NCBI GenBank assembly: GCA_003225295.1 | Contig: QHYZ01000077.1 | Coordinates: 1 to 53,417 of the forward strand | Length of the DNA stretch: 53,417 bases | Source of the DNA: Acidobacteriota bacterium | GTDB lineage: Bacteria > Acidobacteriota > Terriglobia > Acidiferrales > UBA7541 | Reading direction: 5' to 3' | Shown here: positions 15,209 to 52,764 of the stretch, in pieces | Layout of the letters: each line of letters begins with the position of its first letter | How positions within the stretch are numbered: position 1 is the first letter of the stretch | The notes under the pieces: generated by a model | The model's database searches: none | What the model was told of the DNA's origin: nothing | Seen by the model: only the letters and a program-made list of their open reading frames with translations | Position numbers and translations under genes: made by a program

Positions 15209-15235
15209 TCTTGTGATGTTAACCCTGAGCAAAGA

Positions 15236-18200: not shown

Positions 18201-18732
18201 CCTTGCCTACGCGCATGCTACCCTGTTCCCCGGTCGTCTCGACAGCACCTGCACCCAGCAACAGAAACTGTGTGAAGTTTCGATCCTGCAAAGGCAGGTT
18301 TTCCACCTGCGTGTTGCCTATGGTCTGCGAAATTGCTGACGTGTCCGTATCCAATGCCAGGGCGCTAGCGTTCACCGTGACTGTCTCCGTCACAGTGCCT
18401 GCCTTCATGGCGGCGTCCACGCGAACGTTTTGGTCGACCGCGAGATTGATGTTGTCCACGACTGTTTTCTGGAATCCCGCAGCTTCGACGGTAATCCGGT
18501 ATGTGCCCGGCCGGAGGTATGGAACGGCGTAATTTCCAGCTTCATTCGATTCCGTCACCTGACTGATATTTGTCGCTGTGTTCGTTACCGTCACTTTCGC
18601 CTTGGCGATAACCGCGGCGGAGCTATCAGTAATCGCCCCTAGAATAGTTCCGACTCCGCCGCCTTGGCCGTAGACCTGGCCGGCCGCTCCCATAGTGAAC
18701 AGTACGCACAACAGAAGACTTCGCCGTTTCAT
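15277..18732 (-). CDS. Oar-like TonB-dependent receptor with carboxypeptidase-regulatory-like N-terminal domain
   Basis: A 1151-residue outer-membrane receptor. A signal peptide (RRSLLLCVLFTMGAAGQVYG) is followed by a Cna-B-like carboxypeptidase regulatory domain (TILGAITDSSAAVIAKAKVT, then AGNYAVPYLRPGTYRITVEA). Next come a plug with the family phrase NNYTLDGLVNTD and a large beta-barrel ending in the aromatic-rich QLRLDAFNTFNHPHFDAP and a terminal LGAKFQF typical of beta-barrel insertion. Such receptors are greatly expanded in acidobacteria and import oligosaccharides or other large ligands with TonB energy. Its place among rhamnosidases suggests uptake of rhamnose-containing oligosaccharides. 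ATG 18732 follows AGGAGGG. A putative operator (site B) lies 246-277 bases upstream. Confidence 0.92.
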   Translation of the reverse strand: MKRRSLLLCVLFTMGAAGQVYGQGGGVGTILGAITDSSAAVIAKAKVTVTNTATNISQVTESNEAGNYAVPYLRPGTYRITVEAAGFQKTVVDNINLAVDQNVRVDAAMKAGTVTETVTVNASALALDTDTSAISQTIGNTQVENLPLQDRNFTQFLLLGAGAVETTGEQGSMRVGKGNAISINGARPTSNNYTLDGLVNTDTALNTPAVILSIDAMQEFKEQTSTYSAEYGFSANQVNIVSKSGGNDLHGSVFWFGRNDALDAQTPFAGKNSKLRQNQFGFVASGPAYLPKLYNGRNKTFWLANYEGWRTTLGTTVQGLVADPAQLGGDFSASGLPAYGSAACTTALASNLPCMPIDPTTGAPFPGNKIPSTSFSRLAKTSLAQNIFPAPNCTTCGAAVNFREAVNAPTSQNQQTYKLDQDLGRFGRVFGRGTLANYTNSNAGGTVSIPLGNGSFVEKETSWTVGHTINIGSHLVNQARYGQLEATANQCSQAVPQSVVDAIAFTGAFPNLSDCARSYPGITLNPTSRVGGPVNDTTLSNIPTREIADSLTLIHGKQTLTMGVDYRHWIQKRNLNADYLGDFTYRNDLINQNGSSNGFIPGPQNGCPTPACGTANSIADFLLGYYQSVGVFLPGPFSKAGQIGNLNQYHFSYFAPFVQDDWKVSSRLTLNLGLRWDFRTVPFEQSNKMGWLDTSNPDGGLCIADPSLVTKGIAPAGSMYRYCGRHNPAVGSKKPFAPRFGFAYRPFGGDKTVIRGGYGIFFDSSEGREIDDSGDIYPYAVRAAVTPATQPVASAPKLSDQIFIPNNTISPVTPAQSTFIAVIISENPKNPYVQQWTLSLQREIFKNTTLEVNYLGNKGTHLLTRNNIAQAFAPDPNNITPVASRKPYKNFTGVYIDSEWRGRANYQSGNVKLEHRSTSLTFQAAYTWSKSLDDKSAAAGIGASGGGFQGFMDNHRPELDYGLSDFDVKSHFVSNFVYELPAGRGKRYLSNANRAVDAVIGGWQVGGIVTLQKGFPFSIGANDFNCLLDMPFCAGLNRANLVSGQNPNSGFTRSTAEWFNTAAFVQPGAGIYGTTPRNYLRGPGFNNWDMSLAKSVALTERMHFQLRLDAFNTFNHPHFDAPNSALGTPGFGSITSARPGRILQLGAKFQF

Positions 18733-24254: not shown

Positions 24255-25361
24255 TCAGCTTGCCGCCCGGGCTCTTTTCGCCAGGGACGTGGCCGTAACC
24301 AGCTTGTGGGCAATGTAATTGTAGGGCGGCACGGTCTGCCCATTGAGGATTCCCAATCCCAGTTGGATCAATCGCGGGCCATAGCTACCTGCTTCATGCG
24401 ATACCGAAGCAATGTAGGGTGTGCCCGGAGTCTTCATCTCCTCGAGAGCCTCTTGGATACAATCCTGGCCGACGATCGCAACGTCTTTCTCTCTCTTCAT
24501 ATCCCTTACCGCCTGAAGAGCTCCCAGCCCGCTAGTATCGGTGGCTGCTGCAATCAACAACCCGCGGTTTTTCGAATGCCGGCGAAGGAAGTTTTGCACC
24601 AGCCGGCAGCTCTTTTCTCGCAATCCTTCTCCGTCCACCAAGACGTATGCGTCGTGCTTCAGGCTAGGAAGCCGTGAGCGCACCCCTGCAAATGCGCCGG
24701 TGATGCGGCTCTGCACGAGCGGTCCCGCCTCCTCGATCCCCAACCCAAGGATTTGGCTAACCTGTCCGCCCCAATGGGTCTTGGCAAAAACGGCCAAATA
24801 CTGCCCCGCCTCAAAACCAACCCGGTAATTATCCACTCCAAAATAAGTGGCGTGTGGATGGGGGATGTCTACGGCGATCAGAGGAATCCCTGCTCCGGCG
24901 ATTTTGTCGGCGATAGCCGGCGCGATTCGCTGATCGATCTGAAATTCGATCACCAGGTCAACCTGCTGCCGGACAAATTCTTCCGCATTGCGCACTGCTA
25001 TTTGCGCATCATAGTGGTTGTCCAAGACCAGCAAATCCACTCCCGCCGAATTCGCCGCCGCCTGCAAACTTTCTCTCACTCCTTCGGAGAACGGCATCTC
25101 CGACGATTCGCCGCCGAAGCCAAACCGGACTTTCCTCGGTCGGGAAACCATCCGATACAGGCCATTCTCTGAATGCGCCAGGTAGCCGCGGTGCACCAGC
25201 GTCTTTAGAATCCGGTATACGGTCGTCTTGGAGATCCTGGTTCGTTGATATATTTCCTCGAGCGTCCTCGGACTATTCTCCTTCTGCATCAATTCCAGAA
25301 CGTCCAGTGCTTTAGATAGAACGGGAATCAGGTACAGACGTCCGGGAAAGGATTTGCCCAT
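24255..25361 (-). CDS. Chimeric regulator: IclR-type HTH fused to a sugar periplasmic-binding-protein domain
   Basis: A 368-residue cytoplasmic regulator. Residues about 12-70 are an IclR-type winged helix (LSKALDVLELMQKENSPRTL, then ISKTTVYRILKTLVHRGYLA). Instead of the GAF-like IclR effector domain, residues about 95-360 form a type 1 periplasmic-binding-protein fold of the RbsB/Peripla_BP_4 kind: LLVLDNHYDAQIAVRNAEEF, VDLVIEFQ, IPLIAVDIPHP, TYFGVDNYRVGFEAGQYLA and VAIVGQDCIQEALEEM. No signal peptide precedes it, so it is not an exported binding protein. The likely ligand is L-rhamnose or a pathway intermediate, judged from position. It is divergent from rhaT with putative operator site E between them, suggesting autoregulation. 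LacI-family proteins share the sensor fold but have a different DNA-binding domain. Confidence 0.9.
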   Translation of the reverse strand: MGKSFPGRLYLIPVLSKALDVLELMQKENSPRTLEEIYQRTRISKTTVYRILKTLVHRGYLAHSENGLYRMVSRPRKVRFGFGGESSEMPFSEGVRESLQAAANSAGVDLLVLDNHYDAQIAVRNAEEFVRQQVDLVIEFQIDQRIAPAIADKIAGAGIPLIAVDIPHPHATYFGVDNYRVGFEAGQYLAVFAKTHWGGQVSQILGLGIEEAGPLVQSRITGAFAGVRSRLPSLKHDAYVLVDGEGLREKSCRLVQNFLRRHSKNRGLLIAAATDTSGLGALQAVRDMKREKDVAIVGQDCIQEALEEMKTPGTPYIASVSHEAGSYGPRLIQLGLGILNGQTVPPYNYIAHKLVTATSLAKRARAAS

Positions 25362-39840: not shown

Positions 39841-40401
39841 TTATCTGTAAAACAGAACTTTCCCGGAAGGATCGAGTTGTTGCAGAAAATCAAAATCAAC
39901 AACATTGCGGGTCAGCACGGAGCAGCCATGCTTTCTAGCTGTGGCAAATAGCAAGGCGTCGTTCAACACCCGGCGTCGCTGGTCGCTCTTGTATCCCTGC
40001 AGCCGGGCGAGTGTACCGGACAGAATTCCCGCTTCACGCCATATCTCGGAATCGGTTGCGAGTGTGCGATGGCTTGGCCGCCGTTCGATCACCGCGACAA
40101 CCTGTTCCGTGATCCCGCGTGTCTGAGCACGTGCGGGGTCAAGTAGACCGCAGGTTGCCGCTAGTTCCGCTTCTGTTACTGGCGAATGCCACGCCTCGGC
40201 CGCCCGGAGCATGGCGTCTCCCCTTCGTGGAAAACGGTTCTGGAGAATGTCGATATAAACCGTGGTGTCGTACAGCAGCTTGGTGGTCCGACCGCCTGCG
40301 GACTCGATGAAGTCGAGTTCCGATTCGGGGCGCGGTTTGAGCGGTGTTCGGTGCTTTTCGGGCTTAAGACGTCTAAGAGCGCTCTGAAATTCAGAATTCA
40401 A
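39841..40401 (-). CDS. PIN-domain toxin (VapC-like)
   Basis: A 186-residue protein with a PIN ribonuclease fold. The first acidic residue is in LLYDTTVYIDILQNRFP; further ones are in VTEAELAATCGLL, RRRVLNDALLFATARKHGC and SVLTRNVVDFDFL, giving the usual Asp/Glu cluster of the active site. The start is probably TTG 40401, which follows GAGG and overlaps the antitoxin end by 11 bases; a longer frame to 40512 would overlap the antitoxin gene for over 100 bases. Partner of the antitoxin at 40391-40699. The target RNA is unknown. Confidence 0.82.
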   Translation of the reverse strand: MNSEFQSALRRLKPEKHRTPLKPRPESELDFIESAGGRTTKLLYDTTVYIDILQNRFPRRGDAMLRAAEAWHSPVTEAELAATCGLLDPARAQTRGITEQVVAVIERRPSHRTLATDSEIWREAGILSGTLARLQGYKSDQRRRVLNDALLFATARKHGCSVLTRNVVDFDFLQQLDPSGKVLFYR

Positions 40402-40699
40402 GGTCAGCCTCGTGGTCGATGGTGCCACGGCGAGCAAGCAGCCACTCAGCGTAGTCGTCTGCGACCGCAATGTTGGCCAGCGCCAGCTCGATGAGATCGG
40501 TATCAGAAACAACTCCGGTGCGCTTCTTTGCCTGTGCCACCAGGGCCTTAGGCATTCTACCCCGGACCACTTGGTCTCTTTCCCCGCGCAACAGGCCTTG
40601 CTCCTCGGCGATGACCATCACCTCACGGAGCTTACCAGGACAGCTAATGCTGGTGCTTTTTCCCATTCTCGAACTGGCAGTTTGAGCAGCACGTTTCAT
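40391..40699 (-). CDS. Antitoxin of the PIN-toxin pair
   Basis: A 102-residue protein with a basic, low-complexity start (MKRAAQTASSRMGKS), a central helix region (LREVMVIAEEQGLLRGERDQ) and a C-terminal part (VVRGRMPKALVAQAKKRTGV, then LIELALANIAVADDYAEWLL) characteristic of small antitoxins encoded ahead of PIN toxins. ATG 40699 follows AGGAG by seven bases; the frame extends to 40732 without a ribosome binding site. The first gene of the pair; its promoter region carries two 10-base direct repeats likely to be its binding sites. Confidence 0.8.
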   Translation of the reverse strand: MKRAAQTASSRMGKSTSISCPGKLREVMVIAEEQGLLRGERDQVVRGRMPKALVAQAKKRTGVVSDTDLIELALANIAVADDYAEWLLARRGTIDHEADLEF

Positions 40700-40924: not shown

Positions 40925-41342
40925 CTACGCTGCGGAAATCTCTGAACTGAGCCCAACTCCCATTCTGACTGGCGAAGATATCTATCTAAAAGAGCCGTTC
41001 CAGGTGCTGTGCGAGAAGCACGCAGTGAGCAAGATCCATCCGGATCTCGCCACTTCGGGCGGAATTTTGGAAACGCACAAGATCGGCGACATATGGCTGA
41101 AGATTACGAGGTACCGATGGCCATGCACTTTGCGGGGAACGCCTTGGTGGTCCTTACTTGTGGAAGAAGGCACGAAGACGCCGATCGTCAACCACGGTTG
41201 GATCGATGTGCCTGACAAGCCTGGCCTTGGTGTGACTCTCAATGAGAGCATAGTCCGCCAGCACTTGGCGCCTGGCACCGGCTACTTCGAATCCACGTCG
41301 TACTGGGATCACGAACGCTCCTGGGATCGACTCTGGAGCTAA
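40925..41342 (+). pseudogene. Remnant of an enolase-superfamily (mandelate racemase/dehydratase) gene
   Basis: The C-terminal part of an MR/MLE-type dehydratase is recognisable in pieces. One frame reads ISELSPTPILTGEDIYLKEP and VSKIHPDLATSGGILETHKI GD. A frameshift near 41093 continues as MAEDYEVPMAMHFAGN, then the first frame resumes with VEEGTKTPIVNHGWIDVPD, KPGLGVTLNES and LAPGTGYFESTSYWD to the stop at 41340-41342. Compared with family members the segment between MAMH and the final domain is much shortened, so there is a deletion as well. The N-terminal capping domain and most of the barrel are gone. Confidence 0.8.
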
Positions 41343-41353
41343 GCGCCACAACT

Positions 41354-43063
41354 TCACACTATGCCCTTTCCCTCGATTATATGGATGTAGCGGTTTGGGG
41401 CCACATTGGCGAATTTGTCAGTACGTTTACTTGGTGCGGGCCAGCGGATCTCGAGCTCGTCAAGTTGGGAGGCGGCGCCGACCCCGAGAACTTCCCGGAG
41501 ATCGTGCGAGGAGAGATAGCTGCCGCCATTGTTCTTCAGGCGCTGGCGTAGTTTGCCGCCTGCTTTCCAAAGGATACGCGCCCCGATAGCATCGCGATTG
41601 CACGTCACGCCTTCCAGCCTGAGACCCAGCCAATTGTTCCCTTTGGCCGCGTTGTTCTTCAAGAGCACGGGAGGGCCGCCGTTGGTTGCAATGAGCACAT
41701 CGAGCGCTCCGTCATTGTCATAGTCGCCCACAGCCAGTCCTCGCGCAGCGAAGCTCTTCTCAAACGCCGTTCCCCCCTCCGAGCTTATATTTTTTAGCTT
41801 GCCGTCTTGGCCCTGATGAAAGAGCAGGAGGGGCTCCTTGTACCGAACCTGGCGCGAGTAACGACCGATCATGTCGTCCGGGTGGCCGTTGGCCAGGATC
41901 AGATCGATAGCTCCGTCGTTGTCATAGTCGAAATACTTTAGGCCCCAACCGCTCAAAAGCCTGGTCGCCTGCGCAACTCCGTGCGAGTGTGCGACATCGT
42001 TAAAGGTCTCGTTTTTGTTGTTGTGGTAAAGCGAAAACATTTCCTGATCGACATTAGCCACAAAGAGATCCTGCCATCCGTGGTTGTCCAAATCGCCGGC
42101 GTCAACGCCCATACCAGAACGAGGCTGGCCATTGTCGCTAAATGCTACCTCGGCCTGCAGTGCGATTTCTTCCCAGCGGGTTTTTCCGGAGGTATCTGGA
42201 CCGCGGTTCACGAATAAAAAATTCTGCACCGTATCGTTAGCGACGAATAGATCCATGCGCCCGTCGTTGTTGATGTCGGTCGCCACCACTCCGAGTCCCT
42301 TGCCTATCCCTCGCGCGATATCTGTGCCTTTGCTTACTTCAGAAAACGTGCCATCGCCATTGTTGTGGTAGAGAAAGCTCGAGGTCCCGCGAAAAACTCT
42401 GGGAATGCAATAATAATGGTTTCCGAGTTGGTTATCGCCGCAAGCAAGCTTCTGCTTCGCGCCATAGTCAACAAAACTGCAGACGAATAAGTCAAGAAGA
42501 CCGTCGTTGTCGAAGTCGAACCAAACTGCGCTAGTGGTCCAGCCGGGAGTAGCAAGGCCGGCTTTCTCGGTCACGTCAGTGAATGTGCCGTTACGATCGT
42601 TCTTGTAAAGAATGCAGCGTCCGTAGGATGTGACGAAAATATCTGGCCATCCGTCGTTGTCGTAGTCGCCGACAGCAACGCCCATTCCGAAAGTTCCGCC
42701 CGCCACGCCAGCTTTCTCGGTCACATCGGTGAATGTTCCATCGCGATTGTTCTTGTAAAGTGCATTGTGAACCGGCTTGCCCGGCGTCCAGAAATCACAC
42801 GGCCCGCTGTTCACCAGGTAGATATCCATCCAACCGTCGTTGTCGAAGTCGAGGAAAGCGCAGCCGGGCCCTAGAGTCTCAGGAAGGTAGCGATTGTCCG
42901 ACATAGCATTTTCGTGGACCCACTCGATGCCACACGATGAGGACGAAACTTCGAGAAACAACGACTCCCCCGGTGCCTGTGGAACCAGAGCAGGCATTCG
43001 GAGGGCTTTCGCAGCGCCAAGAGCCATACCTATTCGAAGAAACCCGCGTCGGGAAAAATTCAT
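41354..43063 (-). CDS. Tat-exported FG-GAP/ASPIC-UnbV (CRTAC1-like) protein, second copy
   Basis: A 569-residue paralogue of the protein at 12188-13936. The N-terminus [20 protein letters not shown] is a twin-arginine signal. The body has at least seven FG-GAP/VCBS-type loops such as [36 protein letters not shown] and [12 protein letters not shown] with intervening [18 protein letters not shown] segments, then an ASPIC/UnbV end ([32 protein letters not shown]). The acidic loops suggest calcium binding. It is the last gene of the minus-strand cluster, 9 bases after the VWFA gene. Function is not established. Confidence 0.9.
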
Positions 43064-43072
43064 TCGTGGATC

Positions 43073-45256
43073 CTATTGCAAAACAAACGTGGTTACTTCC
43101 TCGGCCGTCTCAGCGCCCTGCATGGCATTGAATCGGATCGCATATTCACCCGGCTCGAGCGAGGCGACCGCCACGGTAGCCACGTACTGAATCCGCCCGT
43201 CTTTGTCTGGCTGGCCAAGCTCTGGCGAGCCGCTCCCCAATACCTGGCCGTTTCTGCTGAACTGCATGGACAAGCGGGGAGCCTGAGAGGAGTTTTTGTC
43301 GGGATAGATCACCACGTAAAACGATACGCTGGAATTGCCTGCCTTGCTGACGGTCGGATTGAGCGTCGGCGAAACCACACGGCTCCCAATCACCAGCGGA
43401 TCAGACTGGTCCGTAGAGGCCTCTTTGTCTTTCATATTTCGAACAACACTGACGCTGCTAATGGACAGGGCAGAAGAGGGCGGCGGCATCATCAGACTAT
43501 TTTTTCGAGCGCTAATTCGGTTTCCTTCGCCGTCGAGCACTGCCGTTTCCAGCGTGTAGTGCCCAGGTGGCAAATCGAAGTGTTCTGTGTAAATGAAGTG
43601 TCCTGCCGTAAGCGCATCTCGCTCCGCGTTCGGCACGTGGAAGGGGATGTCGTTTCCAAACTTCTTAATCACTTCACCGCTTCCTTTTTTCACCAGAGCG
43701 ACGTAGGACAGCCGGCCTTCCGACTGATCATTACCCTTCTTCTGAAAGGTCAAATTGGCGAGTGGCACATCCAGCACCAGATCGCACACGGATTGGTTCT
43801 GCGCACCCCGGAAGTGTAAAGCCATAGACTGATATCCAAACGTCTTTGGCAGCTCCGCTGAACTCAAAGCGGTCAGAAGAGGAACCTCGAAGGCGCGCAG
43901 CAAGTTGCCTTGACCGGCGAGTGCGGGAGGCAGAGCGATGTATCCAGATCGCGATTGCACGCGCAAATCGCTCGAATTCATTTTTATGGCGATTTTGCGG
44001 AACGAGCCGTCGTAGCTTTTGATCTCCGGCACATACCCGATCTCGTAATAGGTTTGAATATCCTCGGCGAGTTTACGAAGCGGCGTCCCTACGTCATTCG
44101 TGTTGGCGATCAGCATTCCTCCAGTAGATTCTGCAAGATTCGCCAATGTGTTTTGCGTGTTCGCACGCGTACTCTCAATGCTGGTGTCAAAGAGCTTAGC
44201 TTCGTCGGGTCTGACGGCTTGGCTACCGTCATTGGCCATTTGGTCTTGCGAGGCTCGCGCTGCTCTGTTCAGCGTGTTCATTGCACCGGAACTGGCGCTA
44301 CCGGTTGTCAAACCACGAGCGTCGACCGCGTAGAAACTGACGTTCGAACGGTTGGCCACGCTGATAACGCTCTTGAATGGTTCTTCCATTCCCTGAGGTA
44401 TCACGAAACCACCTTCTCTAAAATAAAGTATGGTTTTCCGTCCCGGCAGGCGGTACTGCTCCTTCACAGCGTCGAGCAAGGCGTAGATGTTCACCCGGCC
44501 GGCTTCCTTCACCCCGCTGCTTTGTTGACTTTCGAGCATTTGCAGCACCATTTGGGCCATCGCCATGTTGACCAGCCCGGCGACGTCCGGCGCCCGCCCC
44601 TGCGCCTGCGCGGCGTTGGTGGCATTCTGGTTGTCGATTTGCCCTTGGATGGACTGCGCTCCGCTCGAGTCCGGACCTACCATTTGCTCCAATTGTTTTT
44701 GAACTATCGCTGTATCAGAGGAGAAATCCGTATTCTCGCTTCGAGTGGCACGGTCGATGGCCTTACGCAATAGGCCTGGATCATTGGTGAATGACTGAAG
44801 AACTTCGAGCTTTCGATCGATGGTCATGACGGACATGTAAACGTTTTGCGGGAGGTCGCCCTTCAAGAGACCGAGGGCCGCGTCATGGGCGAGCCGCCGG
44901 GCGTCATTGTTCCAGCATTGAAAAATCATCGTCACCAGGCGAATCTGACGGAGCGGATCGAGTTGCATCCGCGAACCGCCTGCGGCCACAGCTTCACCGC
45001 CTTGGACGAGGCGAAACGCCATGATTTTCTTTTGTTCGCCGTTGTCGAATATCTGGAAATCTTCAGGCTTGAGGTTGTTAACGGTGTGCCCTTTCTTGTC
45101 GCGAACCACGACATCCAGCAGGACTTCCTCGCTGGTTGTCCGCACAGCGGCGCCTTGCGGCGGTGCAGTTGCGTTTTGCTGGGCGTAACCAGCCGGCAAA
45201 AGAAACAACGCGATTGCCGCGAGCCAAAAGCACATGAGTCTTGGAGAATTTTTCAT
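43073..45256 (-). CDS. VWFA-related acidobacterial-domain protein
   Basis: A 727-residue exported protein of the acidobacterial VWFA-related family. Signal peptide (MCFWLAAIALFLLPAGYAQ), then the signature opening VLLDVVVRDKKGHTVNNLKP and EDFQIFDNGEQKKI. The von Willebrand A-like part has QIRLVTMIFQCWNNDARRLA, GRKTILYFREGGFVIP and SFYAVDARGL; its metal-site DxSxS motif is not preserved in a normal form. The C-terminal half is beta-rich (GHYTLETAVLDGEGNRISA). The family is almost confined to acidobacteria and has no known function; an envelope or adhesion role is a guess. It follows the cytochrome gene by 50 bases. Confidence 0.88.
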   Translation of the reverse strand: MKNSPRLMCFWLAAIALFLLPAGYAQQNATAPPQGAAVRTTSEEVLLDVVVRDKKGHTVNNLKPEDFQIFDNGEQKKIMAFRLVQGGEAVAAGGSRMQLDPLRQIRLVTMIFQCWNNDARRLAHDAALGLLKGDLPQNVYMSVMTIDRKLEVLQSFTNDPGLLRKAIDRATRSENTDFSSDTAIVQKQLEQMVGPDSSGAQSIQGQIDNQNATNAAQAQGRAPDVAGLVNMAMAQMVLQMLESQQSSGVKEAGRVNIYALLDAVKEQYRLPGRKTILYFREGGFVIPQGMEEPFKSVISVANRSNVSFYAVDARGLTTGSASSGAMNTLNRAARASQDQMANDGSQAVRPDEAKLFDTSIESTRANTQNTLANLAESTGGMLIANTNDVGTPLRKLAEDIQTYYEIGYVPEIKSYDGSFRKIAIKMNSSDLRVQSRSGYIALPPALAGQGNLLRAFEVPLLTALSSAELPKTFGYQSMALHFRGAQNQSVCDLVLDVPLANLTFQKKGNDQSEGRLSYVALVKKGSGEVIKKFGNDIPFHVPNAERDALTAGHFIYTEHFDLPPGHYTLETAVLDGEGNRISARKNSLMMPPPSSALSISSVSVVRNMKDKEASTDQSDPLVIGSRVVSPTLNPTVSKAGNSSVSFYVVIYPDKNSSQAPRLSMQFSRNGQVLGSGSPELGQPDKDGRIQYVATVAVASLEPGEYAIRFNAMQGAETAEEVTTFVLQ

Positions 45257-45306
45257 TGTTCGTTTCCTTTTCCTAAGATCCTTATCGTTGAATCGTTATA
45301 ACCGCA

Positions 45307-46350
45307 CTAACCCGGATACTTTTCATTTGGCTTCACGATTCGAATTCGATGATCGGAAAACTTGTGGTGCGCCCCGGGCAACTCGAGTTTTGGCATGTGG
45401 CAGGTCACACATTTTTCTGTGGACACCGGACAAGGTTTCGCACCCAGTTTACCGCCGCCATGACAGGCTTGGCATTTCGCGTCGTAATCGACGAGTTTGC
45501 CGCTCACTTCGTGGTGCGGGTCATGGCACGCGAGGCAGCTAATTCGCGCGTCGTCCGCGTCGTAGCACCTGCTACCCGTCAGGCGGTAAGGCTGGAAGCG
45601 AATGTTTGTAATGCTCAGGTTACCCTGCAAGGCAATTTCTTCCCACGTCCGGTGACACTGTCCGCAGAAGTTAGACACTTGCTCCGCGGATAGTCCATGT
45701 AATTTGAACAAGTCCTTTGGTGCCTCTAGCTCGAGACTATTTAGCAGCTTCGCCGCCATGTGGGTCTCGGCGGATTCATGACAGCGCTCGCACTGCACTC
45801 CGGGAGTCATTTTGTCCAACGTGAGTTGTCTTCCAAAAGTCGCGTTTGTTGCGTGGCACCCGAAGCAGCGCAGTTTATCGTCGCGGCCCATGAGGCGCCC
45901 GGCAGCTTCGTTAATGTCCGATGGGGTAGACCCCTCGGAACCTAGAGTTGGAGCGAGGCCCTTCAGCTCGCTGAAATAGCTGACGCGGCTCTCATAGAAT
46001 TCACCGTCCTTCTCTAGGACGTAAGTTTGGCCAATTGCAGAACTGGCTCCCATCGCCCACCGGATGGGCATGGTCATGGTCTTGATTCCGTCGGAAACCG
46101 AATAACTGCTCTGTGCTCCCTTGCGCTCAATCTTGTAGGAGTATCTGCCAACCTTCGTGGTCAGAACGGGATGATCAATAAGAATCTTGCACTCTCCAAC
46201 CATTTCGAGCGCGTGCGCCATGGAAGTGGCCGGCTGAGACTTCGCCTGTGCGTGACACGGGGCGCACGCAGACACACCGCGCGAATCGGTTTGCGCCACG
46301 GCGGCTGCAGGAAGAACCAAACACAGAAGTTGCCGGCGCCATCTCATCAC
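45307..46350 (-). CDS. Seven-heme c-type cytochrome
   Basis: A 347-residue exported protein with seven CxxCH heme-binding motifs: CAPCH, CFGCH, CERCH, CGQCH, CLACH, CQACH and CVTCH. The N-terminus (RRQLLCLVLPAAAVAQ) is a signal peptide, placing it in the periplasm. The arrangement, with GVQCERCHESAETH and RISCLACHDPHHE, recalls the cytochrome c554/NrfB-like multiheme group often found beside TPR and CRTAC1-like proteins in acidobacteria. It should carry electrons, but donor and acceptor cannot be told. Its first four bases overlap the end of the upstream TPR gene, so the two are translated together. Confidence 0.9.
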   Translation of the reverse strand: MMRWRRQLLCLVLPAAAVAQTDSRGVSACAPCHAQAKSQPATSMAHALEMVGECKILIDHPVLTTKVGRYSYKIERKGAQSSYSVSDGIKTMTMPIRWAMGASSAIGQTYVLEKDGEFYESRVSYFSELKGLAPTLGSEGSTPSDINEAAGRLMGRDDKLRCFGCHATNATFGRQLTLDKMTPGVQCERCHESAETHMAAKLLNSLELEAPKDLFKLHGLSAEQVSNFCGQCHRTWEEIALQGNLSITNIRFQPYRLTGSRCYDADDARISCLACHDPHHEVSGKLVDYDAKCQACHGGGKLGAKPCPVSTEKCVTCHMPKLELPGAHHKFSDHRIRIVKPNEKYPG

Positions 46351-47501
46351 GGTTTGGAAACAGCGACTTCGTTCTGGCCTCTCAGCCGCAAAAACTCCTC
46401 CCGTTCTTTCGCCGCATCCGTCTTGCGGCCCGCCTTGGCGTAAGCGGTGCCCAAGGCAAAATGAACCTGGGGTTGCCAGGGAGCCAACCGCACCGCCGTC
46501 TCCAGCTCATGCGTCCCCCGCGGTACATCCAAGTCTCCTTCCGCCAGAACTTGCCCCAGGATGGCGTGAGCCGCAAAGTAGTTGGGGCTTGCTTCGACAG
46601 CTCTCTCGGCGTAGGGCAGTGCCGTTTGGTATTCACCACGTTTCAAGTACTCCGCTGCAATACTTACGAGCGCTTGCGGGTGCTCGGGCGAAATCGCCAG
46701 TTCAGCGTTCCATTCTTCCAATGCTTTGTCGGAGTCGTTCGCCAGCACCATCGTGCCGGAGATGTAATGAATTTGCGGCGTGTTCGTGTATTTGCGCAGC
46801 AACTCCAACCGATCCCGCTCCGCTTCCGCAGCTCGCCTTGCGGCGGAGTCGCACGTCGCATGTCCGACATCCAGGACTAGTTCGCGCTCGAGCGGTGGGA
46901 GTTCGTTGGGCAGCAGCGGCTTGCGAAGCGCGGCCAGCCCCATCGCTTCGGTGAATTGCGGCGTATCCTTGCCTTGCCTCGCAAAATCGCCAATGATTTT
47001 TACGGCGAATTCGAAACGCCCCGAGCGTATCAGCAAAAGAGCAAGATGGTATCTGGAAACATCATAAAAACCTTGCTCGGTCGGAATCTTAAGCTGATCA
47101 GCCTTCTCCAGATGGGCCAACGCGCTATCAAAATCTTTTGTCTCGAATTCACATAAGCCCAGCATCGCCCATCCCAAGGCCATTTCGGGCTTCAGGCCCG
47201 TCAGATGGCGGAAGGCAGCTCTCCCATCGGGGTATTGATCCGCCTCGTAGTAAAGCATTCCCAGATACCACCAGCCCTCCGCGAATCCTGGCCTCATGCG
47301 AACCACTTGCTTGTATAGCCGCATGGCTTCGTCGGTTTGATCAGCCGCCCGGGCAGCATCCGCCTTCTTAACCAGCGCGTCGAAGCTGGAAGCACTCGTC
47401 GTCCCCGCTGCCCTCCCTGGGGAAGCGCTCTTCGTTTGCGCCACGGCATCGCAAGCCGCAAAAAGGGCAACGAAGATAAGGCCCAACGTCAGCCGTTTCA
47501 T
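46347..47501 (-). CDS. TPR-repeat protein, exported
   Basis: A 384-residue protein with a signal sequence (MKRLTLGLIFVALFAACDAVAQ; FAAC could serve as a lipobox) and about eight tetratricopeptide repeats, for example EAMRLYKQVVRMRPGFAEGW, FDSALAHLEKADQLKIPTEQ and YQTALPYAERAVEASPNYFA. Probably a periplasmic scaffold. Four-base overlaps tie it to the TPR gene upstream (47498-47501) and the cytochrome gene downstream. Confidence 0.88.
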   Translation of the reverse strand: MKRLTLGLIFVALFAACDAVAQTKSASPGRAAGTTSASSFDALVKKADAARAADQTDEAMRLYKQVVRMRPGFAEGWWYLGMLYYEADQYPDGRAAFRHLTGLKPEMALGWAMLGLCEFETKDFDSALAHLEKADQLKIPTEQGFYDVSRYHLALLLIRSGRFEFAVKIIGDFARQGKDTPQFTEAMGLAALRKPLLPNELPPLERELVLDVGHATCDSAARRAAEAERDRLELLRKYTNTPQIHYISGTMVLANDSDKALEEWNAELAISPEHPQALVSIAAEYLKRGEYQTALPYAERAVEASPNYFAAHAILGQVLAEGDLDVPRGTHELETAVRLAPWQPQVHFALGTAYAKAGRKTDAAKEREEFLRLRGQNEVAVSKP

Positions 47502-48661
47502 TGCGTGTTCTTTACCCCTTTTTCGTTCGCCTGTTTCTCGGCGTTCAGTTTTTCCACGATGGCGCGTTCCCGGTCCCCGTCGGCTTTCCTCTTTTCGCGA
47601 TAGTAGGCCGTCGCCAGCGACACGTGCGCCTCCGTAAAATTTGGCGCTTCCGCAACTAGCGATTCAAGGTGAGCGCGCGCTTCCTCCACATGCCCGACAG
47701 ACAATTCAATGGAGGCCATCTGATACCTTACCCCCACGTCGCCGGGCCGTATCTCCAGCGCGTGGCGGATGTACTTCAGCGCCTCGTCGAATTTTTCGTC
47801 CTTGCGCAGTAGCACACCCATTCTCAAGGTCGCATCGAAGTTGTTCGGATCATCCCGCAGAGCGTGCACGAAAGCTTCCTGCGCGCCGGCTTGGTCTCCC
47901 GTGGAGAGCAACGCGGTGCCGTAGTAGGCGTACACCTCCGGAAGATTGGGATTCAGCTCCACGGCTCTTTGCAAATCCGTCAGCGCCCCCGAGAAATCGT
48001 TCACCATCAGCTTCGTCGTTCCCAAGAGAAGCCGCGCCTCCGCGGAATCGCCGTTTTTCAGGATCCTGTCGATCAGAACCTGTCCCTTTTCGGCCTGTCC
48101 GTCGCGAACCAGCGCAGTGCCAAGCATGTACACGATCGCCAAATCGTCCCCGTTCGTTCGGTGCGTCGGGGTCAACAGCTCGATCACCTTCTTGTTTTCC
48201 CCCAGCCGCAGATCGCAATCCGCCTCAAGCATCGTTGGCCGCAGGTCGCCCGGCATCTCTGCGCGCACGTTTTTCAGCTCTGCAACAGCGAGAGAGAGCT
48301 TGGCGGTCTTGTAATAGGCCAGGGCCAGGTTCAACCGGGCCTGTGGGAGCGATTTCAGTTGCAGCGCGCGTTTATACTCGGCGATGGCCTCTTCGTAACG
48401 CCCTGCGCCAGCCAACGCCGCTCCCAGGTCTGATCGAACCGGCGCGACGTCTGGATACTTTTCCAGGAATAAACGGTAGTCTTCAATGGCCTGCGCGAAC
48501 TGGCCGGCCCTGTGAAGCGACGCTGCTTCCTTTAAGATCTCTCCGGGAGCCCGCTGCGTTTGGCCGGTCAGGATGCTTGCGAACAACGCAAAAAAAGTAA
48601 AGCCGTACAGCACTCGCCGCGTCACACACACCACTAAGCGCGAAGCTGAACGGCTTCCCAT
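47498..48661 (-). CDS. TPR-repeat protein, exported
   Basis: A 387-residue protein with an N-terminal hydrophobic segment (YGFTFFALFASILTG) and about nine tetratricopeptide repeats, for example GQFAQAIEDYRLFLEKYPDV, RYEEAIAEYKRALQLKS and FDEALKYIRHALEIRPGDVG. It differs from the following TPR protein in repeat composition, so the two are not a recent duplication. It stands 66 bases after the TonB receptor gene and overlaps the next gene by four bases. Confidence 0.88.
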   Translation of the reverse strand: MGSRSASRLVVCVTRRVLYGFTFFALFASILTGQTQRAPGEILKEAASLHRAGQFAQAIEDYRLFLEKYPDVAPVRSDLGAALAGAGRYEEAIAEYKRALQLKSLPQARLNLALAYYKTAKLSLAVAELKNVRAEMPGDLRPTMLEADCDLRLGENKKVIELLTPTHRTNGDDLAIVYMLGTALVRDGQAEKGQVLIDRILKNGDSAEARLLLGTTKLMVNDFSGALTDLQRAVELNPNLPEVYAYYGTALLSTGDQAGAQEAFVHALRDDPNNFDATLRMGVLLRKDEKFDEALKYIRHALEIRPGDVGVRYQMASIELSVGHVEEARAHLESLVAEAPNFTEAHVSLATAYYREKRKADGDRERAIVEKLNAEKQANEKGVKNTQ

Positions 48662-48727
48662 TTCTCGGCCCTAGAACAGTATAGCGGAGCGTCCGCCCAA
48701 GAGTAGGTGGGCGCTGCGCGGGGAAAA

Positions 48728-51700
48728 CTAGAAGTAGTACTTCAACGCGAGCTGGATGATGCGATTGCCCACCTTGATTGGCGCCACGCCAAAACTTGAG
48801 TTGCTCTGCACCTGACTGCCCGGAGTCGCACCCGGTGCGAAGTTAAGGAACAAATTGCTTGCACCCACGCCGCTCCCCGTGAAGCTCCACATAGGATGGT
48901 TCATGAAGTTATAGGCAGAGAAGCGGAACTGAAACTTCTTGCTTTCTCCCATTTGGAAATTCTTGAAGAGCGACAGGTCGCTCGTCCAGTTCCAGGGCCC
49001 AAAGAACTCAGGCAGCACGATCGGCCCGTTCTTGCCGGGCACCGTGGGAATCGCGAAGCAGTTCCCGTTCAGCCACTGGTGCGGACCCAAATTCTTGGTA
49101 GGATCGCAGGTTAGTATCGGCATCAACGGAATCTGGTCCGTGCCATTGATTGACAAGTTTGTGATTGTTGAGTTGAATGAGTTCTGTACCTTCAAGCTGG
49201 ACGAAATATTGCCGCTGGCATTGAAGCCCGGGTTCGAGCCGTTGGAATTCCCCGTGAGATTGACGCCGCTCTGTACGGATGTGATGCCCGACAACTGCCA
49301 CCCGTTGACGACGCCAGCCAACGCCTTGCTGTTGTGTATCGGTTTCGGCAGTTCGATGGAATACGCTGCGTTAAATAGATGGCGGCGATCGAAAGGCTCC
49401 GCGCCGTAGTCGTTCTGTAAGTTCACCTGATCCAAACCCACAGTACCAAGTGATTTACTAAAAGTGTAATTAACGGAAATGTCGAAATATCCTTTTTGGC
49501 GGACCCAACTCACCTGCATCGAGTTGTAGTTTGAGGACAGATTGTGATTGGCCACACTGATTATTTGATAGATCGGAAATGGGCCGAATTTGTATTCGCC
49601 ACCGTTGTTCAATGTGGATGGATCAATGGGCTTCCCGCTACTGTCGACAACATCAGGTTGATAAAGCCGACCGGCCGGAATGACGTTGGCGTTGGTTCCC
49701 ACGCCGTTTTGGTTCAACCCATACTTGCTCTGGTTTCCCACATAAGACACTTCGAGCAGCGAAGAGAAGAACGGCAGCCGCTGCGAGATGCTAAAGCTGT
49801 AGCTTGTAGTCAGGGGGCTATTGTCGTCCATGCCGCTAACGGCACCGGTGTTGAAAGGTTGCGTCGCGGCCGTGGTTGCCATGATTTGCGTAAACGTCAT
49901 GGCATTTCCAAAGCTAGGATCCTGCACACCGGCAGGTTGGTCGAGACCCTGCGTAAACTGGGCGTTGTGATAATAGAATTGGCCCCAGCCGCCCCGCAGG
50001 ACAGTCTTACCCGTGCCGAAAAGGTCGTAGGCCAAGCCGAACCGCGGCGCATAGTAAAATACACGATTAGGAAACCCCGAAAGCGCTACTTTGCTGTCCT
50101 TCTGGTGCCAATCAAAGCCAGTACCGGCAATCTGCGGCGAACCAGGAACGTACAGGGCCGGATTCCAAATGGCGAAGCCGATACCTTGCCGGTCGTACCA
50201 CCCGCCCAGATGTGACGCGCGGAGACCGTAATCTACGGTCAAGCGTTTGGTCACTTTCCAACTATCCATAGCGAAGAACTCGATCGCCTTGTAGGCCTCA
50301 TTGTGCAAGACATTCTTGTTCTGTTGTTCGTATTGATCAGCATAGCCTCTAATCAGGTCGGCGTACGGATTGCCCGTGGGGCCGGCCCAGCTGGCCTCCA
50401 CGATTCGCCCGTTTGAGTCGCCGTTGCTCGGTTGATTGTTGATCACGTACTCGTAGTAGGCGCCAAACTTTGCCGTATGCGTGCCCCAAACCTTTGAGAC
50501 GTTGTCACTGAACGACGGGAGGTGCTTCTTCGCAAAAAGGCCCTCGGAACCACCGAGCTCAAAACCGCCCGGATTCAAAATGGTGGCCATTTCGCCACCC
50601 CAACTGGTCAGGGAAGGAATCTGGTCGACGTTGTTACTAGGAGAGAGGCCAGTGAAGGGAATATTCAGAGCCTTCTTGCTGACCTTGCTGGCATTCTGGA
50701 ACACGTTCGGGAAGTCGATGTAGGTGTAACCGAACACGAATTCGTTGGATAGCGTGGAGTTGAACACGTGCGTCAGGCTCGTCGAGATCGAGTCGGATTT
50801 GTTCTTTCCTAGAACCGGCGTGGGGTAAGGCACTTGCGCGGAGTTTCTCCACCACAGGCCAATCGGGAACTGTTGCGTCTCTTTCTGCAGGTTGTAGCGA
50901 ACGTACAGCTTTGTGTTATCGCTGATGCTGTAGTCGACTCGAGACAGCCACTGCCAGGAGTTTTGGTCGAAGGCAATTTCTTTGATGTAGTTGTCGCCAT
51001 TGTTCAGGTTCGGGTCGGCGTTTGGCAGGGGGAAAATATTCATCAGCGCCTGCCCGCTTGGATCAATATGATCCGCGGGGATTACATGGTTGGCAGGCGT
51101 TGGATCATTGCAGACGTTGTTGACTGTTGGAGAAAGGCAAGGACCCAACTGCGAGGGGGGCCCGCCACTTGCAGTCTTCGTGCCCAGTTGCGCCAGTTCC
51201 GCTGGGCTAAAATCACCGTTTCGCATTCCAGCCGTCGGCACCGTGGCACCCAAGAGCCCGGTGTCAAGCGTCTGGTAGTAATACTCGAAGCCGCTAAAAA
51301 AGAACAGTTTGTCGCGCTTTCGGTTGAAATCCGTCTTGGGAAGAAGGACGGGACCGCTGATGTTGCCGCCTGGAAAGAAAAACTTGTTCGCGGGCTTAGG
51401 CGTAACCGGGACCGTAGAGTTATTAACCCACCGATTCGCGTTCAACGCGTAATCGCGCGCGCTGAAGTACGCTTCTCCATGAAAATCATGCCCGCCTGCT
51501 TTGGCGATTGAATTGATGACCACGGGACCTTTGGCGTTCTCGGCGCTGAAGTTCGAGGTCAGCACTTTGAACTCCTGGATCATATCTGTGTTTGGGTTGA
51601 CCGGCGTCGCGCAGTTGCAACCCGGGTCAGAGACATGGGCCCCGTCCGCCGTGATGTCCACGTTGCCTGTGCCAACGCCGTTGGCTACGTACGCGCCGTT

Positions 51701-52300
51701 CAGCGGGCTCTGACTGCCACCATCGCCGTTTCCGTTGATTCCAATCACTTCGCCGGAGAAATCTGTTCCGCTCTTGAGCGGGTCACCGTTATTGCGCGGA
51801 GCAAACCCCGGCAGGATCTTGATGAACTCCGCCGCGTTGCGGCCAACGATACTGAAGTCCTGCAACTGCTTTTCGGTGAGCGTCACGGACTTTTCGCCGG
51901 AATCCGTAGCAATGATCTGGTCGGCGACTCCTTCGACCTTAACTTCCGTCGTGGCGGCTCCGATCGCCAGCTTAATGGGGAAACTCAGGCTTGCCGCGCC
52001 AGTGACTGCGATACCTTCCGTTACCGTCTTCTGAAAGCCGCCAGCCTCTACCGTCAAGGTGTACGCACCCGTCGGCACGGATGAAAAGGAATAGTATCCG
52101 TCGGAGTTCGTGGCGCCTCTCCGAGCGTCTCCGGAAGAGACGTTCTTAAGAGTCACATTGGCATTGGCCACAACCGCTCCGGACGGATCGTAAACCGTTC
52201 CGGTGATCGTGCCGTAGATAGATTGTGCCTGCAGCACCCCTACGGCGAGGAGAATCCAGCAGGACAGGACAACCAAAGAGGAGATGAAACGCTTACCCAC
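48728..52300 (-). CDS. Oar-like TonB-dependent receptor, second copy
   Basis: A 1190-residue outer-membrane receptor: signal peptide (VVLSCWILLAVGVLQAQ), carboxypeptidase regulatory-like domain (SIYGTITGTVYDPSGAVVAN, GYYSFSSVPTGAYTLTVEAG), plug region (LQDFSIVGRNAAEFIKILPG) and a large beta-barrel ending in FRFSAYNFMNHPMW and the final LALKYYF. GTG 52300 begins the signal peptide. No carbohydrate-active enzyme lies nearby, so the ligand is open. It heads the minus-strand cluster with two TPR proteins, the cytochrome, the VWFA protein and the CRTAC1-like protein. Confidence 0.92.
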   Translation of the reverse strand: MGKRFISSLVVLSCWILLAVGVLQAQSIYGTITGTVYDPSGAVVANANVTLKNVSSGDARRGATNSDGYYSFSSVPTGAYTLTVEAGGFQKTVTEGIAVTGAASLSFPIKLAIGAATTEVKVEGVADQIIATDSGEKSVTLTEKQLQDFSIVGRNAAEFIKILPGFAPRNNGDPLKSGTDFSGEVIGINGNGDGGSQSPLNGAYVANGVGTGNVDITADGAHVSDPGCNCATPVNPNTDMIQEFKVLTSNFSAENAKGPVVINSIAKAGGHDFHGEAYFSARDYALNANRWVNNSTVPVTPKPANKFFFPGGNISGPVLLPKTDFNRKRDKLFFFSGFEYYYQTLDTGLLGATVPTAGMRNGDFSPAELAQLGTKTASGGPPSQLGPCLSPTVNNVCNDPTPANHVIPADHIDPSGQALMNIFPLPNADPNLNNGDNYIKEIAFDQNSWQWLSRVDYSISDNTKLYVRYNLQKETQQFPIGLWWRNSAQVPYPTPVLGKNKSDSISTSLTHVFNSTLSNEFVFGYTYIDFPNVFQNASKVSKKALNIPFTGLSPSNNVDQIPSLTSWGGEMATILNPGGFELGGSEGLFAKKHLPSFSDNVSKVWGTHTAKFGAYYEYVINNQPSNGDSNGRIVEASWAGPTGNPYADLIRGYADQYEQQNKNVLHNEAYKAIEFFAMDSWKVTKRLTVDYGLRASHLGGWYDRQGIGFAIWNPALYVPGSPQIAGTGFDWHQKDSKVALSGFPNRVFYYAPRFGLAYDLFGTGKTVLRGGWGQFYYHNAQFTQGLDQPAGVQDPSFGNAMTFTQIMATTAATQPFNTGAVSGMDDNSPLTTSYSFSISQRLPFFSSLLEVSYVGNQSKYGLNQNGVGTNANVIPAGRLYQPDVVDSSGKPIDPSTLNNGGEYKFGPFPIYQIISVANHNLSSNYNSMQVSWVRQKGYFDISVNYTFSKSLGTVGLDQVNLQNDYGAEPFDRRHLFNAAYSIELPKPIHNSKALAGVVNGWQLSGITSVQSGVNLTGNSNGSNPGFNASGNISSSLKVQNSFNSTITNLSINGTDQIPLMPILTCDPTKNLGPHQWLNGNCFAIPTVPGKNGPIVLPEFFGPWNWTSDLSLFKNFQMGESKKFQFRFSAYNFMNHPMWSFTGSGVGASNLFLNFAPGATPGSQVQSNSSFGVAPIKVGNRIIQLALKYYF

Positions 52301-52764
52301 GAGGCCACCCCTTTCCTGAATAACGATCTTTTACTACAAGGGGAAATTCTGTTTGATAGCACTTAAATACTAGATACACGCCTTGTCAAGGAAAAATTGT
52401 TAACCTTAACGAACGGCCGCGATTATGGCCACCCGACAAGTGCTTTGAATCACTGGTGTTAGATCGATTTCCGGTCTTCCGGCAAATCCTCTTGCTTCAC
52501 CGATTCCTGCCTTTCATTCAATGAAATCGAGCAATGGGAAGCGCTACCCCCGAACCTTCCCAGTTGTGGGGCGAAGCCATCTTGGTCCTGCAACCGTATC
52601 AATACCTATGCCCGTCCTGGGCAAAAGATAGCCCAAGTCAGAGTTTATGAAGTCCAATCCAATGATCAAGTTGTACTTTTTTATGTGGAATAGGGCTAGT
52701 TCTCCCGCCAGACGTATCGTTGGGTTCGGTCCCCGAGGGGGCCGAACCCAAAATGGGGGAACCA
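52301..52764. other. Intergenic stretch with possible promoter and a strong hairpin
   Basis: On the minus strand TTGACA (52384-52389) with TTAAGT 17 bases further (52361-52366) is a possible promoter for the TonB receptor; the -10 match is weak. At 52722-52749 the arms GGGTTCGG and CCGAACCC form an eight-pair stem, extended by CCCC/GGGG after one unpaired T and G. It lies 15 bases before the recombinase start. No gene is seen. Confidence 0.45.

Follow-up and report, generated by a model that had tools for sequence, protein, structure and literature searches.

The window analysed here, a 53,417-nucleotide contig (QHYZ01000077.1) from the 8.13 Mb genome of a soil-type acidobacterium (GCA_003225295.1), carries on its minus strand, at 41354-52300, six collinear genes. 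In the order of reading, these encode a TonB-dependent receptor, two tetratricopeptide repeat (TPR) proteins, a heptaheme cytochrome c, a VWFA-related protein and a CRTAC1 family protein. We find that they form a discrete cassette, which is under purifying selection and optional within the genus. Our preferred interpretation, which we hold at a little under an even chance, is a TonB-centred uptake cassette, probably related to glycans, that is complemented by a redox partner of the NrfA superfamily. It draws on the cohesion of the cassette in a congener (G027), the recurrence of its members around related cytochromes above control levels, TPR-cytochrome fusions among paralogs, the predicted folds, and the glycan context of relatives and of a rhamnose locus in the same window. 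We see in the cassette a variation on a known type of layout, not something wholly unexplained.

Gene content and conservation of the cassette

The names of the six genes are backed by Pfam and NCBIfam profile searches. The open reading frames (ORFs), their strand and the seven CXXCH motifs agree with the initial annotation, which had described six co-directional genes at these positions, one of them for a heptaheme protein. The elements of the cassette are as follows.

48728-52300, minus strand: TonB-dependent receptor, Oar type; 1190 amino acids (aa); CarboxypepD_reg (PF13620, 1.3e-19) and OMP_b-brl_4 barrel (PF25183, 3.6e-132)
47498-48661, minus strand: TPR protein 1; 387 aa; TPR_19 (1.3e-29); signal-like N-terminus
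46347-47501, minus strand: TPR protein 2; 384 aa; Pfam TPR; signal-like N-terminus
45307-46350, minus strand: heptaheme cytochrome c; 347 aa; seven CXXCH; OcwA/MccA-like, predicted member of the NrfA superfamily
43073-45256, minus strand: VWFA-related acidobacterial domain protein (TIGR03436); 727 aa; 223.2 bits against a cut-off of 81.25
41354-43063, minus strand: CRTAC1 family protein; 569 aa; FG-GAP (2.6e-54) and C-terminal UnbV_ASPIC (1.6e-12); Tat-like signal
52301-52421, minus strand: leader/promoter side; similarity to G027 extends as far as 52421; TTGACA inside
40938-41353, strand not assigned: downstream edge of the cassette; similarity to G027 stops at 40938

For the VWFA protein, Pfam gave no match at E 0.001. 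Where the initial annotation saw three genes joined by four-base overlaps, two such overlaps indeed link the TPR genes to each other (47498-47501) and the second TPR gene to the cytochrome gene (46347-46350), which has a GTG start and an in-frame ATG three bases on. The other gaps measure 66 bases (receptor to TPR protein 1), 50 bases (cytochrome to VWFA) and 9 bases (VWFA to CRTAC1). A scan for terminators placed no minus-strand site within the gaps that separate the six genes; its total was not clearly above that of shuffled sequences (20 against 14.2, sd 3.8), and a promoter scan stayed at chance level (5 promoters against a mean of 5.1 in shuffles). Judged by eye, all six proteins have a hydrophobic, signal-like N-terminus, with a twin-arginine, Tat-like motif (SRRGFLR) in the CRTAC1 protein, and all six are likely exported.

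In the congener G027, all six genes are present in the same order and are 80-93% identical. The similarity at the DNA level is confined to window positions 40938-52421, with only 996 bases of the window left past 52421. TPR protein 1 is 91% identical, and the receptor is the least conserved member, with values from 75% (tblastn) to 80.5% (aligned codons). The ratio dN/dS lies between 0.075 and 0.115 across all six genes, with a dS of 1.21 for the receptor and 0.44-0.59 for the other five. Two further congeners carry parts of the cassette up to a contig end, namely three genes in G028 and four genes plus a piece of a fifth in G011. The complete six-gene order occurs in the window and in one congener only; other loci carry parts. 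On one side of the cassette lies a partial phage-type integrase gene, which runs to the end of the contig (52720-53415), and on the other a PIN-domain gene (39841-40512); the two may bear on its patchy spread.

Recurrence across cytochrome relatives

A scan of one genome per species found at least 147 relatives of the cytochrome, of which the best 80, all with acidobacterial record titles, were kept. The neighbours at these 80 loci were classed by phmmer with the window and paralog proteins, and partners were counted at the 42 loci with at least 8 kb of upstream and 4 kb of downstream sequence. Loci L148-L155, which largely repeat records already among the 80, were excluded from the counts. 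A TPR protein is found at 36 of the 42 loci, a TonB-type receptor at 34, CRTAC1 at 27 and VWFA at 11. In 20 control windows of 20 kb, taken from other parts of cytochrome-bearing contigs of seven genomes, the respective numbers are 2, 0, 0 and 0 (Fisher p 1e-8, 3e-10, 7e-7 and 0.012, with kinship among the loci ignored). The neighbourhood survey called for by the initial annotation finds the TonB receptor, TPR, cytochrome and CRTAC1 genes together well beyond the window, and all six collinear in G027; it thereby speaks against the refuting outcome named there, a lack of conservation in other genomes. Among the loci with named carriers, KBS 96 (L059) and Terracidiphilus gabretensis (L069) have the pair of TPR and cytochrome genes, and KBS 83 (L114) has a cytochrome together with CRTAC1, TPR and TonB genes.

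At 41 of the 75 loci with upstream sequence, a TPR gene on the same strand ends at most 400 bases upstream of the cytochrome gene; among 42 such pairs, collected with slightly different limits, 13 have a 4-base and 11 a 14-base overlap. For an alignment and a tree of the cytochromes we used 74 rows, comprising the window, two paralogs from the same genome and 71 of the 80 loci; nine loci (L092, L093, L094, L096, L097, L100, L106, L108 and L115) were left out by hand, mostly as short, partial or near-duplicate. Seven CXXCH motifs are present in 69 of the 74 trimmed rows. The TPR-coupled type occupies most of one half of the tree (45 rows). VWFA genes lie within 5 kb of the cytochrome in 14 of 60 tree rows, with 9 changes on the tree, which argues for a repeated add-on.

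A repeated module in the host genome

The host genome contains seven heptaheme genes, each with exactly seven CXXCH motifs. Three are free-standing and four are fused to a C-terminal TPR region, which Pfam confirmed for one of them. The existence of these fusions supports the TPR protein as a partner of the heptaheme. The four fusion proteins (L010, L011, L012 and L013, on contigs C8, C368, C94 and C216, respectively) are 550-606 aa long. A separate case is L187 (11451-14348), where the gene between two CRTAC1 genes encodes a TPR protein containing five CXXCH motifs.

The families of the cassette are numerous in this genome, with about 65 OMP_b-brl_4, 39 CRTAC1-like and 25 VWFA places (68, 54 and 28 match rows, respectively, merged by hand). 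Duplicated genes of Solibacter likewise include TonB, von Willebrand factor A and ASPIC/UnbV proteins, as stated in the part of PMC3174227 drawn on here. Compared with the expectation from a uniform-placement simulation, CRTAC1 genes lie within 8 kb of a TonB gene at 21 of 39 places (4.7 expected), six of the seven cytochrome genes lie equally close to a TonB gene (0.85 expected) and three of the seven to a CRTAC1 gene (0.5 expected). The same simulation gives no enrichment of VWFA genes around those for CRTAC1, TonB or the cytochromes. The TonB, TPR and CRTAC1 genes therefore constitute a repeated module of the host genome, to which heptaheme and VWFA genes are optional add-ons. Of the six-member link proposed in the initial annotation, the association of TonB, TPR, multiheme and CRTAC1 proteins stands, but not as six equal partners. 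VWFA is enriched near the cytochrome across relatives but not in its own genome; as a core member it is rejected, given this lack of enrichment and its 9 changes on the cytochrome tree.

With so many paralogs, a run of six such genes could also arise by coincidence, and the missing enrichment of VWFA in the host genome would be in keeping with this. We regard this as very improbable. The cassette is collinear and under purifying selection, the control windows are nearly devoid of its members, and the overlap of TPR and cytochrome genes recurs. Even for VWFA, the 14 of 60 relatives compare with about 3% expected from its density in its own genome. Chance co-occurrence was accordingly rejected on the control windows and the conserved synteny.

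A second locus of the window repeats part of the cassette next to genes of sugar metabolism. As the initial annotation had noted, this rhamnose locus has a TonB receptor, a TPR protein and CRTAC1. Its CRTAC1 gene lies on the strand opposite to the other two.

12188-13936, plus strand: CRTAC1 of the rhamnose locus
13997-15232, minus strand: TPR protein of the rhamnose locus
15277-18732, minus strand: TonB-type receptor of the rhamnose locus

The whole rhamnose-type locus (2680-31647) encodes a GH39-like protein, two GH106 and one GH78 protein, CRTAC1, TPR and TonB receptor, RhaT, a xylose-isomerase-like protein, an FGGY kinase, a fusion of aldolase II with a short-chain dehydrogenase and an FMN dehydrogenase. 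It also includes a regulator (24258-25361), in which an IclR-type helix-turn-helix (HTH) is joined to a LacI/periplasmic-binding sugar domain.

The heptaheme cytochrome

The AlphaFold2 model of the cytochrome (pLDDT 88.0, pTM 0.83) has a single Foldseek match under E 0.001, which is OcwA of Thermincola (2.2e-4). In VIA comparisons, the model matches OcwA with a Z of 14.3 over 266 residues (rmsd 3.9), the Carboxydothermus S-layer undecaheme cytochrome with a Z of 12.2 (rmsd 6.3) and MccA with a Z of 9.2 over 244 residues (rmsd 5.0). The match to NrfA is weak (Z ~5) and could reflect no more than a shared arrangement. A profile search with the family matched 6r2q_A (2.8e-11), OcwA (4.2e-9), c554 (1.7e-6) and NrfA (4.2e-6), and a single-sequence search against the PDB gave no match under E 0.04. 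The first of these, 6r2q_A, we take to be a chain of the decaheme MtrA; it is labelled 'Cystathionine beta-synthase' in the table, and the aligned stretches have heme motifs. Since multiheme profiles can match via CXXCH alone, the profile matches weigh less than the fold.

In the profile alignment, a CHMPK...KFTDH heme motif is common to the cytochrome and NrfA residue by residue. The model further contains a beta-rich segment (strands 62-134) between heme 1 and heme 2. CXXCK is absent from the window cytochrome and from the other 73 aligned rows, and neither CX15CH nor CX12[N/A]KGCH, which define the catalytic heme of MccA/SirA in the part of PMC6976685 used here, occurs in the window cytochrome. 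The chain stops 13 residues past His334, and the model places no long helices in this stretch. Judged by its predicted fold, the cytochrome belongs to the NrfA superfamily (NrfA/c554/OcwA). Because it has no CXXCK, CX15CH or helical bundle and has two hemes fewer than OcwA, we consider it a member of the superfamily and not of the OcwA, NrfA or MccA families.

Outside the CXXCH histidines, Met44, His197, His279, His328, His334 and Met319 are nearly always kept across the 74 rows, and His60 is kept in 59. Met319 directly follows a CXXCH. Should Met319 not serve as a ligand, the seven hemes would be left with no more than six conserved distal ligands, which by counting alone would fit an open heme. 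By analogy with OcwA, c554 and MccA, this open and reactive heme is probably heme 2. According to the part of the OcwA report consulted (PMC6703420), hemes 1-4 of OcwA match c554, its heme 2 is an open active site, it shares an extra beta domain with MccA, and it reduces nitrite and hydroxylamine. Several residues that are invariant or nearly so among the rows (Glu120, Arg251, Tyr255, Arg256, Ser260, Cys307 and Asp333) may line a pocket.

The closest folds, OcwA and the Carboxydothermus S-layer cytochrome, raise the question whether the heptaheme might function on the cell surface as a terminal reductase similar to OcwA and donate respiratory electrons to humics or Fe(III), with the TonB and CRTAC1 proteins serving its delivery, its anchoring or the handling of chelates. 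The same part of PMC6703420 gives OcwA as a proposed surface terminal reductase. The best profile match, 6r2q_A, could be read likewise if it is, as we take it, an MtrA chain. However, the cassette contains neither an MtrB-like porin nor a second cytochrome, its sole barrel in the Pfam search being the TonB-type receptor. It is moreover optional within the genus, and the regulators of some relatives indicate sugars. We consider extracellular electron transfer unlikely, even if it is the strongest of the alternatives.

The cytochrome may instead act independently of the uptake genes, as a reductase or detoxifier of small molecules (nitrite, hydroxylamine, sulfite) of the NrfA/MccA kind. The NrfA-superfamily fold and the CHMPK...FTDH motif held in common with NrfA would suit this role. 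MccA has a copper site with two cysteines, and the cytochrome has two conserved cysteines outside its CXXCH motifs, Cys262 (69 of 74 rows) and Cys307 (all 74). Yet Cys262 is lost in five rows that retain Cys307, which ill suits an obligatory pair. The characteristic motifs CXXCK and CX15CH are missing, and the uptake partners recur far above controls. We doubt this explanation and rank it behind both electron transfer at the surface and the sugar oxidation discussed below. MccA is not listed among the 33 matches at E 1 of a profile of the C-terminal part and ranked low in the family profile, and an MccA-like copper site was therefore not established. The five rows in which glycine replaces Cys262 (L008, L090, L091, L099 and L102) group on the tree (98/92), and a GH27-type gene cluster is found at four of these loci (not at L102).

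CRTAC1 and the glycan context of relatives

The AlphaFold2 model of the CRTAC1 protein (pLDDT 89.8) matches murine CRTAC1 with a Z of 40.0 over 456 residues (rmsd 2.5). Next in the Foldseek ranking come fungal lectins that bind GlcNAc, a rhamnogalacturonan lyase and aldos-2-ulose dehydratase (Z 28.0), but in the VIA comparison several non-sugar propellers rank equal to or above the sugar-related ones. As propellers match many propellers, the model only suggests a lectin role. A simple motif test did not support the idea that a Tat signal marks the CRTAC1 proteins linked to cytochromes: the motif was found in 11 of 25 proteins encoded adjacent to a cytochrome gene, 7 of 20 encoded 0.4-5 kb away, 3 of 13 at greater distances and 13 of 33 copies in the host genome.

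Several loci of cytochrome relatives have genes that point to sugars. In the order of classified genes, a regulator-like family lies beside the TonB gene at 12 of 87 loci, divergent from it in 11. The N-terminal part of these proteins (e.g. L052:2002-3600) has no Pfam match, and six of the nine that were tested singly contain a malectin domain; we read this family as putative regulators. LacI-type regulators occur at 11 of the 87 loci. Among 100 ORFs flanking the cytochrome loci (from 389 filtered ORFs, in order of increasing distance and after removal by hand of very long and some short ones) there are three GH27, two GH31, two GH97 and two fucosidase genes, as well as two with a malectin domain. 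In the CRTAC1 regions of the host genome (58 of 61 ORFs), we find four LacI, three ThuA, two GH127, two 3-keto-disaccharide hydrolase and two Gluconate_2-dh3 genes. The 25 most frequent of the 126 families in 98 control ORFs (a random draw of 100 from 221, less two at edges) include none of these.

One island in the host genome (G000:C368:9697-39995) combines a heptaheme-TPR gene, TonB genes, TPRs, VWFA and two CRTAC1 genes with two pairs of GMC and Gluconate_2-dh3 genes and one 3-keto-disaccharide hydrolase gene. This co-occurrence within about 26 kb lends itself to a further explanation, in which the heptaheme is the electron acceptor for the periplasmic oxidation of TonB-imported sugars by enzymes of the GMC/gluconate-2-dehydrogenase type. 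Such enzymes are, however, absent from the cassette in the window, and the arrangement is seen at only one of the seven heptaheme loci of the host. Nine of the 11 Gluconate_2-dh3 matches of the host genome lie elsewhere, and the 25 most frequent families in the 100 ORFs flanking the cytochrome loci include neither GMC nor Gluconate_2-dh3. In our estimate this explanation is rather unlikely, less probable than a surface terminal reductase.

Proposed role of the cassette

We propose that the six genes would be expressed as one unit or regulon, and that the cassette would work like a carbohydrate-utilisation locus of the PUL/CUT type without SusD. The CRTAC1 propeller, perhaps together with the VWFA protein, could be a lectin-like protein for capture or scaffolding at the surface or in the periplasm, and the receptor would import the bound substrate. 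The TPR proteins may provide docking scaffolds. The heptaheme, translationally coupled to its TPR partner and placed in the periplasm or at the surface, would exchange electrons through heme 2, either with the substrate once captured or with a component that accompanies it. The likeliest substrate would be a glycan or glycoconjugate derived from plants or soil.

Several observations weigh against this proposal. A close ortholog of the cytochrome (87-93% identical) is present in only three of 35 congeners (G011, G027 and G028), and any cytochrome match at E 1e-30 in 13 of 35, from which it follows that the function of the cassette is dispensable. Four of the 42 loci have none of the four partners, and the other half of the cytochrome tree (29 rows) is mostly without an upstream TPR gene. 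Among the window ORFs searched with Pfam, no glycosidase, SusD or sugar regulator adjoins the cassette. None of the six proteins matches a SusD model in Pfam or NCBIfam. Three of the nine regulators tested have no malectin domain (one of them is cut by a contig end). Most flanking ORFs of the relatives are unrelated to sugars, with no family above five in 100, and the sugar controls come from genomes other than that of the host (G000), with 25 of 126 families shown, so that single glycosidases could hide among them. The fold similarity of the cytochrome, finally, gives no proof of its function.

A more far-reaching scenario would merge uptake and electron transfer in a redox machinery triggered by nutrients. 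Here, the receptor, the lectin-like propeller and the TPR scaffold would retain a heptaheme of the OcwA type at the outer membrane, and a redox-active substrate, which may be a humic, quinone-bound or metal-bound glycan, would be reduced during capture. We think this improbable and place it after the independent reductase. If it were true, uptake and extracellular electron transfer would be one regulated process in soil acidobacteria.

In the host genome alone, the TonB, CRTAC1 and VWFA paralogs with no known role number in the dozens. A cassette kept by selection, which ties an uptake module to an NrfA/OcwA-type cytochrome, names partners that can be tested jointly and places the CRTAC1, TPR and VWFA proteins in a functional setting. 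It also suggests that the reactive c554/OcwA core has been recruited to nutrient loci.

Comparison with known systems

The initial annotation held that no known system explains the link between these proteins. In the titles and abstract starts of the open-licence papers listed we indeed found no description of a TonB-TPR-multiheme-CRTAC1 link; the layout, on the other hand, resembles TonB-dependent carbohydrate-utilisation loci, and the cytochrome has kin in OcwA and MccA.

With OcwA, the nonaheme outer cell wall cytochrome of Thermincola potens (PDB 6i5b), the cytochrome shares its predicted fold over 266 of 347 residues and the beta-rich segment between heme 1 and heme 2. It differs in having seven instead of nine hemes, in the absence of the C-terminal three-helix bundle and in its place within a TonB/TPR/CRTAC1 cassette. 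As a TonB-type outer membrane receptor adjoins the cytochrome, the cassette belongs, unlike OcwA, to a Gram-negative envelope. The octaheme sulfite reductase MccA/SirA (PDB 4rkm) is similar in fold, including the extra beta domain, and its copper cysteines possibly have a counterpart in the two conserved extra cysteines; the cassette cytochrome differs in its seven hemes, the absence of CX15CH/CX12[N/A]KGCH and its gene partners. NrfA, the pentaheme nitrite reductase, has the CHMPK...KFTDH motif in common with the cytochrome and a weak fold match, but differs in its CXXCK, its number of hemes and its helical bundle.

Mtr-type porin-cytochrome conduits have an outer-membrane porin as the partner of the cytochrome, which the cassette does not. 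Murine CRTAC1 (PDB 9etn) resembles the cassette protein over the whole fold at 22% identity, whereas the latter is bacterial, has a Tat-like signal and is encoded in an operon-like cluster. As for the layout, Sus-type PULs and verrucomicrobial CUT loci, the latter as described in the part of PMC5615132 consulted, likewise combine a TonB receptor with binding-type partner proteins, and sugar regulators and glycosidases lie near some relatives. The cassette receptor is of the Oar type, with Pfam hits to CarboxypepD_reg and OMP_b-brl_4 and none to a SusC-specific model. In contrast to a Sus-type PUL, the cassette has no SusD or glycosidase and instead carries the heptaheme, VWFA, CRTAC1 and TPR proteins.

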